DNA of 64,000 bases. Origin: an uncultured Thiocystis sp. GTDB lineage: Bacteria; Pseudomonadota; Gammaproteobacteria; Chromatiales; Chromatiaceae. The stretch covers positions 1 through 64,000 of the forward strand of contig NZ_CAIPNF010000063.1 of assembly GCF_903866365.1 (NCBI RefSeq), given 5' to 3'. The position numbers were made by a program, and so were the translations under genes. The notes below the pieces were generated by a model that was not told the DNA's origin, searched no databases, and saw nothing but the letters and a program-made list of their open reading frames with translations. Below are positions 1 to 5,372 of this stretch, piece by piece. Each line of letters starts with the position of its first letter. Position 1 is the stretch's first letter.

Positions 1-80
1 CCCTTCTCGGTGGCGTGTGACGTGAGGCGCGCCTGGCCCTAATGGTGGCGCTTGATTAGTTTTGTACTGTACTGAGGCCA

Positions 81-100
81 CGGTCACTCTACCCATCCTA
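81..100. repeat. 20-bp direct repeat, copy 1
   Basis: The 20 bases at 81-100 (CGGTCACTCTACCCATCCTA) recur exactly at 759-778 in the same orientation. The two copies bracket the BrnT/BrnA pair, so they may mark a duplicated or inserted segment. No transposase is visible. Confidence 0.6.
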
Positions 101-112
101 CCTCTACCTCGC

Positions 113-325
113 TTAGCGGGACAAAACCCGAGCCAGGGTGCGTAGCGCTTCATTGACCGATGCAGAATCCGGAAAGATTTTCGCGACATCCGAATCGAGT
201 AATACGGTGGTAACATTGCCAGAAAATTCTTTGGCGTACTTTCCTCGAACGCATCCTTTCATATTCGCGAAATCATACTCTTCACGCATGTCATCGACTT
301 CGTTAGTGGCTTGATTGCTGTTCAT
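113..325 (-). CDS. brnA: BrnA-like antitoxin
   Basis: This 70-residue protein lies directly downstream of a BrnT-type toxin on the same strand and overlaps its 3' end by 23 bases, the usual toxin-first BrnT/BrnA order. BrnA proteins are small DNA-binding antitoxins that neutralise BrnT and repress the shared promoter. The C-terminal part (SASVNEALRTLARVLSR) reads like the helix of a ribbon-helix-helix antitoxin. The acidic N-terminus (NEVDDMREEYDF) matches the toxin-wrapping arm seen in the family. The family call rests mainly on the partner and the size. Confidence 0.7.
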   Translation of the reverse strand: MNSNQATNEVDDMREEYDFANMKGCVRGKYAKEFSGNVTTVLLDSDVAKIFPDSASVNEALRTLARVLSR

Positions 326-584
326 AGAAAGCGTGCTCTTTTATCGTCGCTTTTCTTGCGCTAATGATCCGAATTGTATCTTCACGAAAAACGTGAGAAA
401 CAACCAATACTTTAGCAGATGTTGTTTCACCGATTATCAGATAACGATCCTCGCTATCAGAATGATCGATATCAGGATAAGTCATCGATAGAAAATCTTG
501 AAATACTGTAATCGCTTCAGCAAACGAAATATCATGCTTCGCTTCATTTTTCTGGGCTTTTTGATTGTCCCATTCAAATTCCAT
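303..584 (-). CDS. brnT: BrnT family ribonuclease toxin
   Basis: This 93-residue protein opens with the BrnT signature (EFEWDNQKAQKNEAKHDISF) and ends with the typical block R-I-I-S-A-R-K-A. BrnT toxins have a RelE-like fold, cleave RNA and inhibit translation until bound by BrnA. It overlaps the antitoxin by 23 bases, so translation is probably coupled. A second, diverged BrnT/BrnA pair lies at 23793-24384. The coding sequence is AT-richer than the rest of the window, which fits transfer with the accessory region. Confidence 0.85.
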   Translation of the reverse strand: MEFEWDNQKAQKNEAKHDISFAEAITVFQDFLSMTYPDIDHSDSEDRYLIIGETTSAKVLVVSHVFREDTIRIISARKATIKEHAFYEQQSSH

Positions 585-952
585 AAACAGCCTGATGTTT
601 TGTCTTAGCCAGCGTAGTCACACGCGCCGAAGCATCATGTTTGCACCACATAAAACGCTCCGGGGATACCGGGAGCATTCAAGTCTGCCTTCCAGTTCAG
701 TGGTTCGATGGGTTTCGTGACCGGCAGGCTTCCGTACTTAATCATCAACGTCGTGCCGCGGTCACTCTACCCATCCTACGCTGGCTGCGTTTTGGCTGGC
801 GCGGTTGTTGCGTAAGCAAGAACCGTGACAGGCAAATAAGTCAGGTTGAACTGAATGTTCGACAGCTTATCCTTCAATCGGCACAATCTCCGCTGGTACG
901 GCATTGCAGAATAAGCTCCGTCGCGTCCGCGGGGTCCGCTCTTTAACCGCTT
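585..952. other. non-coding accessory stretch
   Basis: I find no convincing gene here. The 101-codon open frame at 641-946 on the plus strand has no recognisable domain and overlaps the second copy of the 20-bp direct repeat (759-778). The right edge, read on the minus strand, starts CGCCTAACAAGCGGTTAAAG, which resembles the 5' half of an integron attC site. Confidence 0.4.
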
Positions 953-1429
953 GTTAGGCGATTGAGTTATTTACACGCATAAAAATAATTCGAACCGAAT
1001 CCATTTAGTTAACTATGCATCAAAACGATCAACCACATTAAATCCAAGTATCGGCATCACATTTCTATGCAATTCACGAGCAAATTTTGGAATAAATATA
1101 CTCAAATTTTTACTGTAATTTATAAGCCAAAGGGATTTCAATTTAGCGCGGGCGTCCTCATTAATATATATCTCCCCATATTTATCAATTAATACCATTG
1201 CAGCACTTACTCCATCACAAGCTAACGAAAAAATATAATCTTCCTCATCATTAATCAGAGATGACTTTAAATCATCTACCATACTAGAGAGGTCGTTACG
1301 AAAGAGTTCAAGATTCATTTTGTCATCCTTAAGGAGTGAATGTTTCAAAATAATTTCGATTTTCTTGGACATAATCACGAACCTTAATAATATAACAGTT
1401 GTCGAAGCCGATCTTGCGTGCTGCCTAAC
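953..1429 (-). mobile_element. possible integron-cassette-like unit
   Basis: A single minus-strand gene (1013-1378) is framed by the inverse core motifs GTTAGGC (953-959) and GCCTAAC (1423-1429). These match the attC core consensus GTTRRRY/RYYYAAC. On the minus strand the order is GTTAGGC, about 45 bases, start codon, gene, stop, about 53 bases, GCCTAAC. That is the layout of an integron gene cassette in an array. No integrase is present, and the outer partner halves are degenerate, so this could be a relic or chance. Confidence 0.35.
1013..1378 (-). CDS. hypothetical protein, AT-rich, cassette-borne
   Basis: I do not recognise this 121-residue protein. It has no membrane segment or signal peptide. 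It has a mixed charged N-terminal half (IEIILKHSLLKDDKMNLELF) and a middle that looks like beta strands (YIFSLACDGVSAAMVLIDKY). Its base composition is far more AT-rich than the surrounding chromosome, so it was probably acquired. It is the only gene between two attC-like core sites. The first ATG is at 1378; a second M at codon 3 is possible. Confidence 0.5.
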   Translation of the reverse strand: MIMSKKIEIILKHSLLKDDKMNLELFRNDLSSMVDDLKSSLINDEEDYIFSLACDGVSAAMVLIDKYGEIYINEDARAKLKSLWLINYSKNLSIFIPKFARELHRNVMPILGFNVVDRFDA

Positions 1430-1621
1430 GATTCTGCTTTAGCGACTTGCTAGATTCGGACCCTTTCAGGCGAAGCCAATGGCGTCATAGAACGTGCGGC
1501 GCCCCGAGGGTAGCTGGGGAAATACAGATTTTGAATTTTTTCAGCTTCCTTTTCTTATGCGCCGCAATCTGGCCTGATGATCACTTCAGGTCTATCACGT
1601 TTCGTGAATTTAGCGAATAAA

Positions 1622-1669
1622 GCTAAGCAGAATCGACCGAGCGAGAGCGAGGGCGATTTCTGCTTTAGC
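1622..1669. repeat. attC-like stem with an unpaired base
   Basis: GCTAAGCAGAATCG (1622-1635) pairs with CGATTTCTGCTTTAGC (1654-1669), leaving single extra bases on one arm. GTTAAGT follows at 1675-1681. A stem with extrahelical bases next to a GTTRRRY core is what folded attC sites look like. The same half-arm recurs at 1429-1444 beside GCCTAAC. Confidence 0.45.
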
Positions 1670-1674
1670 GCATT

Positions 1675-1923
1675 GTTAAGTTCGTGCATCAGAAGAAACG
1701 CGGCCATGCTTGGCAAGCCGCCGACGCTAAAATCAAAAGGGGGAGAATGAAAAAATCCTTTCCGTTCAGAGAAGCAAAAACGATTTCTGTCATTAACTTG
1801 TGTTATGCAGAATCGTTTTTGCTTCTCTGAATAGCATGGATTTTGGATTTTTTCATCCCTCTTTTTTGTCGGCGATTTCGCCTGCCAAGATCAGATATTT
1901 TTCTTTATTTTCAAGAACTTAAC
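1675..1923. repeat. 249-bp imperfect palindrome
   Basis: The ends GTTAAGTTC (1675-1683) and GAACTTAAC (1915-1923) are exact inverse copies. Inside them the arms keep pairing in blocks: CTTGGCA/TGCCAAG, CGCCGAC/GTCGGCG, a run of about 20 bases around GAATGAAAAAATCC, and a 24-25 bp core at 1765-1789 against 1808-1831 with one extra base. It is either a MITE-like element with 9-bp ends or a non-coding cassette that folds into one hairpin. Confidence 0.6.
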
Positions 1924-1992
1924 AGTGAATTAGACAGAATCCGTAATTATGGTGCTAGACAGATTCCACGTTCGCTGTACTAAGACCGGTAG

Positions 1993-2017: not shown

Positions 2018-2085
2018 GGACGCCGCTAATGATGGGATCCACTCCCCTTCACTCCTGCCTACTCGACTCGTGAAAATCAGATGGT

Positions 2086-2556
2086 TCATCCGCCAACGGA
2101 CCTGCGTTCGGATCCAGCAAGCGCGGGAGGAAACCAGTCCGGATCAAGAATCGCGTCGACGCGCCACGGACAGGATTCCGGGAAATCGTCCAAACCCGTC
2201 TCTTCGGATGCCTTGGCGACGGCATCCGACCAGACGCCCGCCCACCAGTCGGCATCTTCGAGACTGACCTTCAGGCTGGGGGTGTTCCTGATGCACAGCG
2301 CGATGGCGTTGCGCTGCTCCTTAAGCGTGCGGCGCCAACTGTTGCCCTGGCGCGCTGGCTGATGCCGCCATTTCAGCAAGTGGGTCAGCAAGAGCGCCAT
2401 GCGGCGGCCAAGTTCGCGGCGTTCGCTTTCCCCCACGTCCTCGATTTCCTCGGCAATGTGCGCGATGTCCAGTTGCGCGAACCGCCCCGCGCGCAGGAGC
2501 CGCGCCTGCTCGTCGGCCCAGGCAATGATGTCGTCGTCGTAAGCGGTGGCGGTCAT
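2086..2556 (-). CDS. DUF29 family protein
   Basis: This 156-residue protein matches the DUF29 pattern common in cyanobacteria and gammaproteobacteria. It has an early D-D-x-x-x-W segment with AEQARLLR-like text, the helix L-D-I-A-H-I-A-E-E-I-E-D-V-G at about 29-42, and the later WRRTLKEQRNAI stretch. The function of DUF29 is not established; members are often multi-copy and sometimes accompany toxin-like genes. The start ATG at 2556 gives the expected length. It is convergent with nothing and is followed by a rightward gap to the accessory region. Confidence 0.75.
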   Translation of the reverse strand: MTATAYDDDIIAWADEQARLLRAGRFAQLDIAHIAEEIEDVGESERRELGRRMALLLTHLLKWRHQPARQGNSWRRTLKEQRNAIALCIRNTPSLKVSLEDADWWAGVWSDAVAKASEETGLDDFPESCPWRVDAILDPDWFPPALAGSERRSVGG

Positions 2557-2591
2557 CGTTGCCGTGTCTCCGATGGGTCACGCGCGACCCA

Positions 2592-3086
2592 TTACGACAG
2601 CGTCAGCCCCTTTTCGCCGCGCGTGATGCCAGTGGGACCGGAGCGGACGACTTCGATCAGCAGTCCCTCGGGGATGGCGTCGATGAAGGCGTCGAGCTTT
2701 TTGGAGGCACCGGTGAGTTCGACGACATAGCTGGTCTCGGTCACGTCGATGATCTTGGCGCGGAAAATCTCGGTGAGACGCTTAAGTTCCTCGCGATCCG
2801 GGCGCTCGGCGCGCACCTTGACCATCATCATCTCGCGCTCGATGTGCGGTCCGTCGGAAAGATCCAGCAGCTTCACGGTGTCGATCAGCTTGTTCAACTG
2901 CTTCTTGATCTGCTCGACGATCTCCTCGCTGCCGGTGGTGACCAGCGTCATGCGCGAGAGGGTCGGGTCGTCGGTGGGGGCGACGGTCAGGGATTCGATG
3001 TTATAGCCACGGGCCGAGAACAGACCCGCGACGCGCGATAGCGCTCCGGCCTCGTTCTCCAGCAACACGGCGATGATGTGTCTCAT
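2592..3086 (-). CDS. ilvH: acetolactate synthase small (regulatory) subunit
   Basis: IlvH is the regulatory subunit of acetohydroxyacid synthase, the first common enzyme of valine, leucine and isoleucine synthesis. It confers valine feedback control on the catalytic subunit encoded just upstream. The 164-residue length is normal. The N-terminal ACT domain is clear (residues 1-75, with LLENEAGALSRVAGLFSARG and YNIESLTV), followed by the conserved C-terminal domain with the ELTG block. I start at the ATG at 3086 (MRHIIAVL); an in-frame extension to 3161 has no homology. The ilvB-to-ilvH gap of about 210 bases is filled by inverted repeats. Confidence 0.95.
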   Translation of the reverse strand: MRHIIAVLLENEAGALSRVAGLFSARGYNIESLTVAPTDDPTLSRMTLVTTGSEEIVEQIKKQLNKLIDTVKLLDLSDGPHIEREMMMVKVRAERPDREELKRLTEIFRAKIIDVTETSYVVELTGASKKLDAFIDAIPEGLLIEVVRSGPTGITRGEKGLTLS

Positions 3087-3109
3087 GGTGAAAATCTCGT
3101 GTCGTATTA

Positions 3110-3301
3110 AACCGCGTCCATCCGGATATGCGTCGTGTTGAGCGGTCGGCCAGGTTTGCATGAACCGGTGACCGTCGGCGTCGACGCGGTTTAAATCATT
3201 TAAAATTCAATCCTTAAACCGCGTCAGCGATGACGCGCATTGGATTCATGCGTGGCCAAACCAAAACACCAGCCACGCAAAATCCTGTTGGACGCGGTTT
3301 A
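3110..3301. repeat. cluster of TAAACCGCGTC repeats between ilvB and ilvH
   Basis: The motif TTAAACCGCGTC or its inverse occurs at 3110-3121, 3183-3194, 3214-3225 and 3291-3301. The middle pair forms a perfect 12-bp stem with a 19-base loop. The last copy contains the ilvB stop codon (TAA). The motif recurs at other gene ends in the window (39634 and 42603). The hairpin may act on the ilvB-ilvH transcript. Confidence 0.7.
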
Positions 3302-5089
3302 GGCCAGTTCGCGGTCGGTCAGGCTGGGCGACAGGTGCATCTCGTGATGCCCCTTCCCCGCCGCGATCATGGGATAGACGTTCTCGGTCGGATCGACCAC
3401 GACATCCAGGAACACGAAGCGATCCTTCATCGCGAACGCCTCGCGCATGGCGTCTTCCAGATCGGCGGGACGCTCGACCCGCATTCCGACATGGCCGAAA
3501 CTCTCGGCAAGCTTCACGAAGTCCGGCAGCGCGTCCACATAGGAATGCGAGTACCGGCTTTCGTAGAACAACTCCTGCCACTGGCGCACCATGCCCATGT
3601 AGCCGTTGTTGAGCAGCACCACCTTGATCGGCAGCGAATACTGCTTGCAGGTCGCCATCTCCTGGATACACATGAGGATACTGGCCTCGCCAGAGACGCA
3701 GGCGACCTGGGCCTCGGGAAACGCCAGTTGCACGCCCATCGCCGCCGGCAGCCCGAAGCCCATGGTGCCGAGACCGCCGGAGTTGATCCAGCGCCGCGGC
3801 TTGTCGAAGGGATACAACTGCGCCGCGAACATCTGATGCTGGCCGACGTCGGAGGTCAGATAGAGTTCGCCATCGGTGACTTTGTAGAGTGTCTCGATGG
3901 CGAACTGCGGCTTGATGGCGGCACTGGTCCGGTCGTACTGGAGACAGTCCAGACGGCGCCAGTCGGCGATCTTGGCCCACCAGTCGGCGATCGGCGCGGG
4001 ATCCGGCTGGGGTTTTTGCGCCTGGTAGAGCCGCAGCATCTCGGTCAGCACGCCCGCCACCTGACCGACGATGGGCACGTCCACCCGAACGTTTTTCGAG
4101 ATCGAGGAGGGATCGACATCGACGTGGATGATCTTGGCATGCGGACAGAAATGTTCGATCTTGCCGGTCACCCGATCATCGAAGCGGGCGCCGATGGCGA
4201 TCAGCACGTCGGTCTCGTGCATCGCCATGTTGGCCTCGTAGGTGCCGTGCATCCCGAGCATGCCGATGAACTGGCCATCGGTCGTGGGAAAAGCCCCGAG
4301 CCCCATGAGGGTGCTGGTGATCGGAAAGCCGGTGGCGCGCACCAACTCGGTGAGTTGGGCCGAACCTTCGCCGAGCACCACGCCGCCGCCGGTGTAGAAC
4401 ACCGGGCGCGTTGCCTGGAGCATGAGATCCACGGCCTTTTTGATCTGCCCCGGATGCCCCTTCTCGACCGGATTGTAGGAACGCATCCGGATCTCGCGCG
4501 GGTAGTGGTAGGGGATCTTGATGTTGGGATCCGTCACGTCCTTGGGGATATCCACCACCACCGGACCAGGTCGGCCCGTGGTCGCGATATGAAACGCCTT
4601 GCGAATGGTCAGGGCCAGATCGCGCACATCCTTGACCAGAAAGTTGTGCTTCACGCAGGGCCGGGTGATGCCGACGGTATCGACCTCCTGGAAGGCGTCG
4701 CTGCCGATCACCGGCGTCGGCACCTGCCCGGTCAGCACCACCATGGGGATGGAGTCCATGTAGGCGGTGGCGATGCCGGTGACGGCATTGGTCGCGCCCG
4801 GCCCCGAGGTGACGAGACAGACGCCGCACTTGCCGGTCGCGCGCGCATAGCCGTCCGCCGCGTGGGACGCACCCTGCTCGTGACGGACCAGGATGTGCCT
4901 GACCGTGTCCTGTTTAAACAGGGCGTCGTAGATATGCAGGACCGAGCCGCCGGGATACCCGAAGACCAGTTCGACGCCCTCGTCGAGCAGCGCCTGAACG
5001 ACGATTTCGGCTCCGCTCAGTTGCCTGCCAGCCCCGGCATCGGCCTCAGCCGCGCCCGCCCTGTTCGGTTCCGCTCCAGTCAGTGCCAC
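3299..5089 (-). CDS. ilvB: acetolactate synthase large (catalytic) subunit
   Basis: This is a thiamine-diphosphate enzyme that condenses two pyruvates, or pyruvate with 2-ketobutyrate, at the start of branched-chain amino-acid synthesis. The three ThDP-enzyme domains are present: the N-terminal domain with FGYPGGSVL and the catalytic glutamate in VRHEQGASHAADGYAR, a central FAD-binding domain, and a C-terminal ThDP domain. In the metal/ThDP motif the usual G-D-G reads S-G-E-A-S (VACVSGEASILMCIQEM), followed by the expected N-N-G-Y-M-G. I start at a GTG (5089) because GGAGGT lies 8 bases before it; the upstream ATG at 5131 has no such site. It forms an operon with ilvH. Confidence 0.93.
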   Translation of the reverse strand: MALTGAEPNRAGAAEADAGAGRQLSGAEIVVQALLDEGVELVFGYPGGSVLHIYDALFKQDTVRHILVRHEQGASHAADGYARATGKCGVCLVTSGPGATNAVTGIATAYMDSIPMVVLTGQVPTPVIGSDAFQEVDTVGITRPCVKHNFLVKDVRDLALTIRKAFHIATTGRPGPVVVDIPKDVTDPNIKIPYHYPREIRMRSYNPVEKGHPGQIKKAVDLMLQATRPVFYTGGGVVLGEGSAQLTELVRATGFPITSTLMGLGAFPTTDGQFIGMLGMHGTYEANMAMHETDVLIAIGARFDDRVTGKIEHFCPHAKIIHVDVDPSSISKNVRVDVPIVGQVAGVLTEMLRLYQAQKPQPDPAPIADWWAKIADWRRLDCLQYDRTSAAIKPQFAIETLYKVTDGELYLTSDVGQHQMFAAQLYPFDKPRRWINSGGLGTMGFGLPAAMGVQLAFPEAQVACVSGEASILMCIQEMATCKQYSLPIKVVLLNNGYMGMVRQWQELFYESRYSHSYVDALPDFVKLAESFGHVGMRVERPADLEDAMREAFAMKDRFVFLDVVVDPTENVYPMIAAGKGHHEMHLSPSLTDRELA

Positions 5090-5097
5090 TTTAAGCG

Positions 5098-5103
5098 ACC
5101 TCC
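5098..5103 (-). promoter_or_regulatory. ribosome binding site for ilvB (decides GTG start)
   Basis: On the minus strand GGAGGT is followed by CGCTTAAA and then GTG. The spacing of 8 bases and perfect complementarity to the 16S tail favour this start over the ATG 14 codons upstream. Confidence 0.7.
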
Positions 5104-5372
5104 GATCAGCCCGCGCAACCGGGGGACGCATGGCCCGTCGGCGGATGCCCGCGAAGAAGCGGCGCCCGCGTCACGCCTCCTATCGCGGCGAATCCGCGAT
5201 CGTCGGGAGGCGTCAACCAGCCATGGTTCCCCGGTTGAACGAGGAATAATGAAAACGTTGAAAAAGGATCGAAGTTACAGCGATCGTTACCGGCGGTCAA
5301 GCCAGGCAAACCGGCCGAACCGCGACCCTGCCGATCATCGTTCGTTCGGGCGAAGGGCGGCAGGCCGGATCG

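Follow-up and report, generated by a model that had tools for sequence, protein, structure and literature searches.

The window, that is the whole stretch of 64,000 bp analysed here (bases 1-64000 of the 73,517 bp contig C63, in the 503-contig, 5.52 Mb genome G000), carries between ilvBN(-DUF29) and ilvC what we judge, with good but not full confidence, to be a cassette array without an integrase, headed by an orphan attI site, probably filled in trans and now decayed. An integron integrase encoded elsewhere, today on contig C424, would have recombined the attC sites of free cassettes with the window attI by the usual integron reaction acting in trans, and the cassettes would have been inserted at G1923^T1922. 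Later the left end of the attI would have been lost and wear would have set in at the attC sites of cassettes 1-3; the array is now probably little active. We infer the action in trans and the time order of these events from sequence comparison.

The attI occupies 1923-1982 on the minus strand, with the crossover at G1923^T1922 and the core GTTAAGT at 1923->1917. A search of the genome with 1430-1980 gave a match at C424 1901-1961, where an attI-like sequence lies in the expected place between the first cassette and a complete integrase gene (2063-3457, 464 aa, TIGR02249 at 446.9 bits with a cut-off of 265). The window site is 89% identical to it over 63 bp (E 7.9e-17), and because the same sequence sits between the C424 intI and its first cassette, we read window 1980->1923 on the minus strand as an attI. 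Behind the C424 attI follow two attC (42.2 and 27.6 bits), and a strong attC lies on contig C489; the original prediction had advised looking for an integrase and additional cassettes elsewhere in the genome. Read outward from intI, the attI consists of three spaced repeats of about GATTCTGTCTAG, then ACTG^TTRRRY. The same motif adjoins long IntIs of other genera, and the closest named integrase is from an uncultured Thiodictyon (74%). In the window the left part is missing, namely the first of the three repeats (beyond 1982), which leaves two repeats in about 60 bp; this remainder matches the pattern GATTCTGTCTANNNNACTGTTRRRY with no mismatches and has the GTTRRRY crossover of a complete integron. 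Five attI copies were found in the genome, and as those on C107 and C372 have mutated cores and no accepted closing R'', several of the five are dead.

With the attI as starting point, the array reads on the minus strand as three cassettes, 1922->1614, 1613->1429 and 1428->953. Cassette 1 (1614-1922, 309 bp) starts at the attI crossover and is mostly palindrome with no clear gene. Its R'', GAACTTAAC at 1683->1675, is an exact 9/9 complement of the cassette start, closing at +239. The putative attC of this cassette (1614-1683, minus strand) is a stem with extrahelical bases, and the R' of the following cassette, GCTAAAT, is a sign of wear in it. Cassette 2 (1429-1613, 185 bp) holds no gene and is worn as well; its R' GCTAAATTC (1614->1606) and R'' GAATCTAGC (1457->1449) are complementary at 8/9 positions and both have an unusual GCT, its attC lacks the second half, and it shares a 27-nt direct repeat (D3) with the attC arm of cassette 1. 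Cassette 3 (953-1428) starts after the core GTTAGGC at 1429->1423 and extends to the R'' GCCTAAC at 959->953. It encodes an orphan ORF of 121 aa (1013-1378, minus strand) with no match in Pfam, NCBIfam or PADLOC, in agreement with the orphan gene described earlier. Of its attC the first part is present (890-959, minus strand), the second part being lost or replaced; it resembles C424:227->134 by eye and C489:661-729 at 83%.

The original prediction had named GTTAGGC (953-959) and GCCTAAC (1423-1429) as the frame of a cassette, and an attC-like stem at 1622-1669. All three are present, and the first two are indeed cassette ends, but the array they belong to reads on the minus strand; the pair is symmetrical and therefore gives no reading strand alone, and we dropped the plus-strand reading of the array after the attI had been recognised. 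The stem depends on the form considered: as it stands (1605-1690) it gave z -1.98, with 6/200 shuffles as good, whereas in circle form, with the first bases of cassette 1 joined on, it gave z -4.5 and 0/1000 shuffles as good. The notion of a worn cassette array was thus right in kind, considering the attI, the cassette ends and the worn attC, while the attI, the minus strand and the identity of the palindrome with cassette 1 had been missed.

To search for attC sites we used a covariance model, R1, built from 21 seeds from other genomes, which is not the model of IntegronFinder. No significant attC was detected inside the window with filters on or off, the attC of cassette 1 reaching only 5.6 bits, and a regular expression search of the window for attC gave no match at the thresholds used. 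As the search with filters off lost a long-loop attC (the C352 match), the filter-on results were used. On C489 the model found attC of 33.7 bits (E 4.3e-6) and 15.1 bits (E 0.16), against none in the window alone, where a CALIN needs at least two. It should be noted that we call the candidate attC sites of the window worn on the strength of their paired ends; by the R1 model they are not attC.

On its right the array is flanked by DUF29 (2086-2556, PF01724, 3.7e-44), ilvN (from 2592) and ilvB (3299-5131), all on the minus strand (2086-5131 in total), the two ilv genes being named from their proteins and from synteny with ilvC in six relatives. On its left lie a BrnT toxin (303-584, minus strand, PF04365, 8.8e-27) and a BrnA-like antitoxin (113-325, minus strand), the latter assigned by position and by similarity to a BrnT partner in C489. 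The low-GC stretch reported earlier was recovered, with GC of 0.37-0.50 in windows up to 2000 and 0.54-0.70 beyond. In the six relatives (G002, G003, G004, G005, G006 and G010) ilvN and ilvC are close together or have an insert between them: the distance is 156 bp in G002 and 60 bp in G010, DUF29 and ilvC are 101 bp apart in G006, and the insert is about 1.6 kb in G003, 3.7 kb in G004 (a complete genome of 5,017,071 bp) and 2.9 kb in G005. The G005 interval contains BrnTA (94% identical to window 77-787) and HicAB, and 706 bp of other DNA replaces window 788-1982; homology of the right flank to G005 and G004 begins only at 1982/1983. These alignments show the window insert as species-specific, and on the same comparison BrnTA is shared flank and not a newly inserted cassette, so we dropped it as a fourth cassette. 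The original prediction would have been contradicted by a lack of covariance-model attC together with an identical layout in relatives; the former was observed inside the window, while the layout differs. Contig C489, on which HicAB, the 33.7-bit attC, a second BrnT and ilvC follow the gene order of G005 and that expected of a continuation of C63, is probably the other end of the array.

To see how widespread such sites are, the pattern GATTCTGTCTANNNNACTGTTRRRY was run with at most two mismatches over 194 genomes of the family, giving 78 listed sites in 42 of them, against 4 sites in 2 genomes for the reversed pattern. Integrases were scored with 23 queries taken from the attI sites themselves: 23 sites have intI, 7 an intI fragment, 43 no trace, and 5 lie at contig edges or have too little sequence. 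A run with the single query P0001 missed weak fragments (23 with 300 or more aligned residues of intI, 5 fragments, 45 with none over 1.5 kb or more of sequence, and 5 with too little sequence), and in that run the attI begins 120-196 bp from intI at all 28 sites with intI or a fragment. Several genomes carry both kinds of site. On the complete chromosome of G049, for instance, the positions 2138, 3072 and 3976 kb have attI with intI, and the orphans lie at 518 and 1351 kb. Six attI sites, and no integrase at E <= 1e-40, were found in G043. R1 was applied to 45 loci, and in the 34 with orphan sites it detected 31 distinct attC (E <= 0.1), all 31 downstream of the attI and on the same strand, with 242 kb searched upstream and 238 kb downstream. 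Further, among orphans with at least 600 bp of downstream sequence, an R'' that complements the first 9 bases (at most one mismatch, within 3.5 kb) was found downstream of 27/41 compared with 7/41 in the upstream control, and with an attC-like stem in addition the numbers were 11 and 0. It counts against our reading that 14/41 orphans have no downstream R'' match and that 20/34 orphan loci have no attC match, only 14/34 having one. The identity of the attI, the cassette ends, the missing intI and the recurrence of this pattern at many loci of the family can be read from the sequence as it stands.

In different species, orphan attIs stay at the same place with different cassettes behind them, and homology ends at the crossover. 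G010_C54 and G048_1903, from two genera, are 93% identical over the 5.8 kb that reach to +1 and have no common sequence after that point; between G000_C352 and G005_C57 the common stretch measures 7.7 kb and runs to the crossover; and G004_2250 and G070_C73 have both flanks in common and different inserts. Orphan and intI-bearing arrays with the same cassettes were found within single genomes, G049_1351 in G049_3072i (92%), G096_395 in G096_1287i (94%), G124_3090 and G124_5322i (96%), and also in G048. Such sharing is what action in trans would predict, although copying of whole blocks could also yield it. The scatter of similar docking sites without integrase over the chromosomes of many related bacteria suggests that a single integrase may fill several of them from a distance.

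The array might instead be what is left of an ordinary integron after deletion of its own intI, with an attI and cassettes once filled in cis, a reading that we hold to be quite possible, if somewhat short of an even chance. Pieces of intI lie beside attI at G005C61, G001C252, G004a and G005C88, intI fragments are seen at 7 of the 78 sites, two further orphans (G043_C51 and G188_C86) carry 45-105 bp of shared intI leader DNA, and C107 and C352 have TTGGAGATTA upstream of attI, as in C424. A deletion at the window is plausible, since the left end of the attI is cut off. On the other hand, the genome search gave no intI-like sequence at C63 and none in the 3.5 kb upstream of the window attI, and the relatives' interval has no attI and apparently no intI. 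Among 96 similar pairs of an intI-borne and an orphan attI none had an upstream identity above 50%, and the background is reached at -78. As even pairs that both bear intI show weak conservation of the leader (from 0.43 down to 0.31), this last argument is modest.

If the array was filled in trans, as we prefer, one can ask how the attI sites became scattered. More speculatively, and with doubt outweighing belief, the attI could be a mobile unit of 77 bp between two cores, G^YTAGRC on the left at -77 and G^TTRRRY on the right: the long IntI would cut at the left core too, attI and first cassettes would leave together, travel and seed docking sites, and one integrase would serve a dispersed multi-site integron. 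In the 96 pairs (75% or more identical over 60 bp) identity is 0.59 at -77..-61 and 0.26, that is background, from -78 on. The left-core expression G(C/T/A)TAGRC occurs at 20 of the 78 sites, 18 times at exactly -77, and 0 times in 101,310 control bases; the remaining 58 sites have variants or none. The attI and 0.7-2.5 kb of cassettes are common at 96% to G049_518, G124_3090 and G124_5322i, which have no common sequence left of about -77 to -87. G049_518 and its congener G096 have the flank in common as far as the left-core G, after which a cassette (a 286-codon gene, attC 18 bits, E 0.0014) replaces the attI in G096, and the two rejoin at the right flank at 96%. This boundary suggests recombination at the left core; as G096 carries cassettes directly at that core, gain and loss of the attI at G049_518 look alike. 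Orthologues of the G004_2250 locus without attI exist in G048, G042 and G140, in which the gene gap is too short and too diverged for the boundary to be placed to the base. Against a mobile unit speak the intI decay plainly visible at other loci, the poor conservation of the leader in any case, and the ten extra bases left of the core that C107 and C352 keep.

The original prediction had offered a family of palindromic mobile elements as its second option, and MITE-like elements with integron-like signals, no integron being involved, would account for how strong the 249-bp palindrome is. Its ends GTTAAGTTC (1675-1683) and GAACTTAAC (1915-1923) are present, and the fold of 1671-1927 (-66.5 kcal/mol, z -11.3, 0/200 shuffles as good) is beyond chance. 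The arm said to recur in each element held in part, with CGATTTCTG exact at 1654 and 1781 only and CGATTCTGC at 1429. A second copy exists at L031:9340-9767 (contig C363), with a truncated umuC-like gene on one side and a 3' fragment of a second intI (84 aa, 95% to C424) on the other. This copy begins at GTTAAAT, has its loop inverted relative to the window copy, and may be cassette 1 inserted into intI. It is the only copy in the genome besides that of the window, whereas a MITE is expected in many copies at unrelated sites. Further, the palindrome start coincides with the attI crossover, more cassette ends come next, and the ends are explained by one attC, as they are the R' and R'' of cassette 1's own. 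We therefore find such elements very improbable and return to cassettes inserted at an orphan attI. Off-target insertion at a short attG-like site in place of an attI is of a type already known, and was reportedly described by Loot et al. in 2024, but with about 60 bp of attI and two repeats present (E 7.9e-17) it is an equally slim prospect.

Integrons are commonly taught as one attI beside one intI. The window shares attI and cassettes with a sedentary chromosomal integron with long IntI such as that of C424, while intI is missing at the window, and we rejected the window as a complete integron since no intI was found next to its attI. Another likeness is to the CALIN of IntegronFinder, a cluster of attC lacking an integron integrase, in that there are cassettes without nearby intI; the window array differs in that a recognisable attI heads it where insertion takes place and that its attC are too worn for the model. 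CALINs are known, with off-target insertion, intI loss and rearrangement as proposed origins (PMC8618304). For the Shewanella prophage M16-3 a CALIN that has an attI of its own has been described, likewise an array without intI that starts with attI (PMC9892861); there it is a single array next to a complete integron within one prophage, whereas here 43 of 78 sites are concerned, in many chromosomal places across a family. In class 1 and class 2 integrons, Delta-attI-type cassettes also have attI pieces away from the home position, which still recombine there; their attI replaces attC inside an integron (PMC12901181), while here attI heads separate arrays. We rejected the window as a cassette of this type, as its attI precedes the cassettes and the flank is DUF29/ilvN. 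In the open-access literature searched, attI sites spread across a whole family were not described, and no relevant paper on orphan or additional attI sites was found; arrays without intI and headed by attI are known, and the scattering of attI within a family would be the new part. Outside class 1, attI is poorly described and not detected, as stated for IntegronFinder 2.0 (PMC9024848), so clusters headed by attI would be overlooked.

Should a single integrase serve many docking sites, cassettes could enter different chromosomal contexts, and part of the cassette clusters without intI would be live satellites and not ruins. The conserved attI motif makes such clusters searchable, and the complete genomes with both intI arrays and orphans (G049, G096, G124 and G048) make action in trans directly testable.

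Some additional observations concern the integrases, the attI sites and the window itself. Residues 1-148 of the C424 integrase had no Pfam match, and about 148 such extra N-terminal residues occur in the long integrases of various genomes, Chromatiaceae-like and Desulfobulbus-like ones among them. Upstream of the C107 attI (L032), at a distance of about 130-160 bp, lie short tandem repeats with CCAACTG units, of which G005 has many copies. In L062, L077, L082, L095 and L098 a perfect hairpin such as ACTGATAGGACAG...CTGTCCTATC directly follows the attI and is succeeded by GTTGAGY; in several integrons such a non-coding insert, with core G^ATARG, recurs at the crossover. In the window, neither a tRNA scan nor Rfam at its gathering thresholds detected anything. 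BrnTA lies between near-identical 25-bp repeats (77-101 and 755-779), which are also found in G004 and G005 next to other toxin-antitoxin genes, and the end of C63 lies near one copy. Between ilvN and ilvB (3107-3301) there are several direct and inverted copies of TTAAACCGCGTC, and at the edge of the variable interval (1983-2060) lies a palindromic repeat, CGGTAGGCTGGGGTGAGGAACGAACCCCAGC, which is common to G004 and G005 and also found elsewhere in both genomes.
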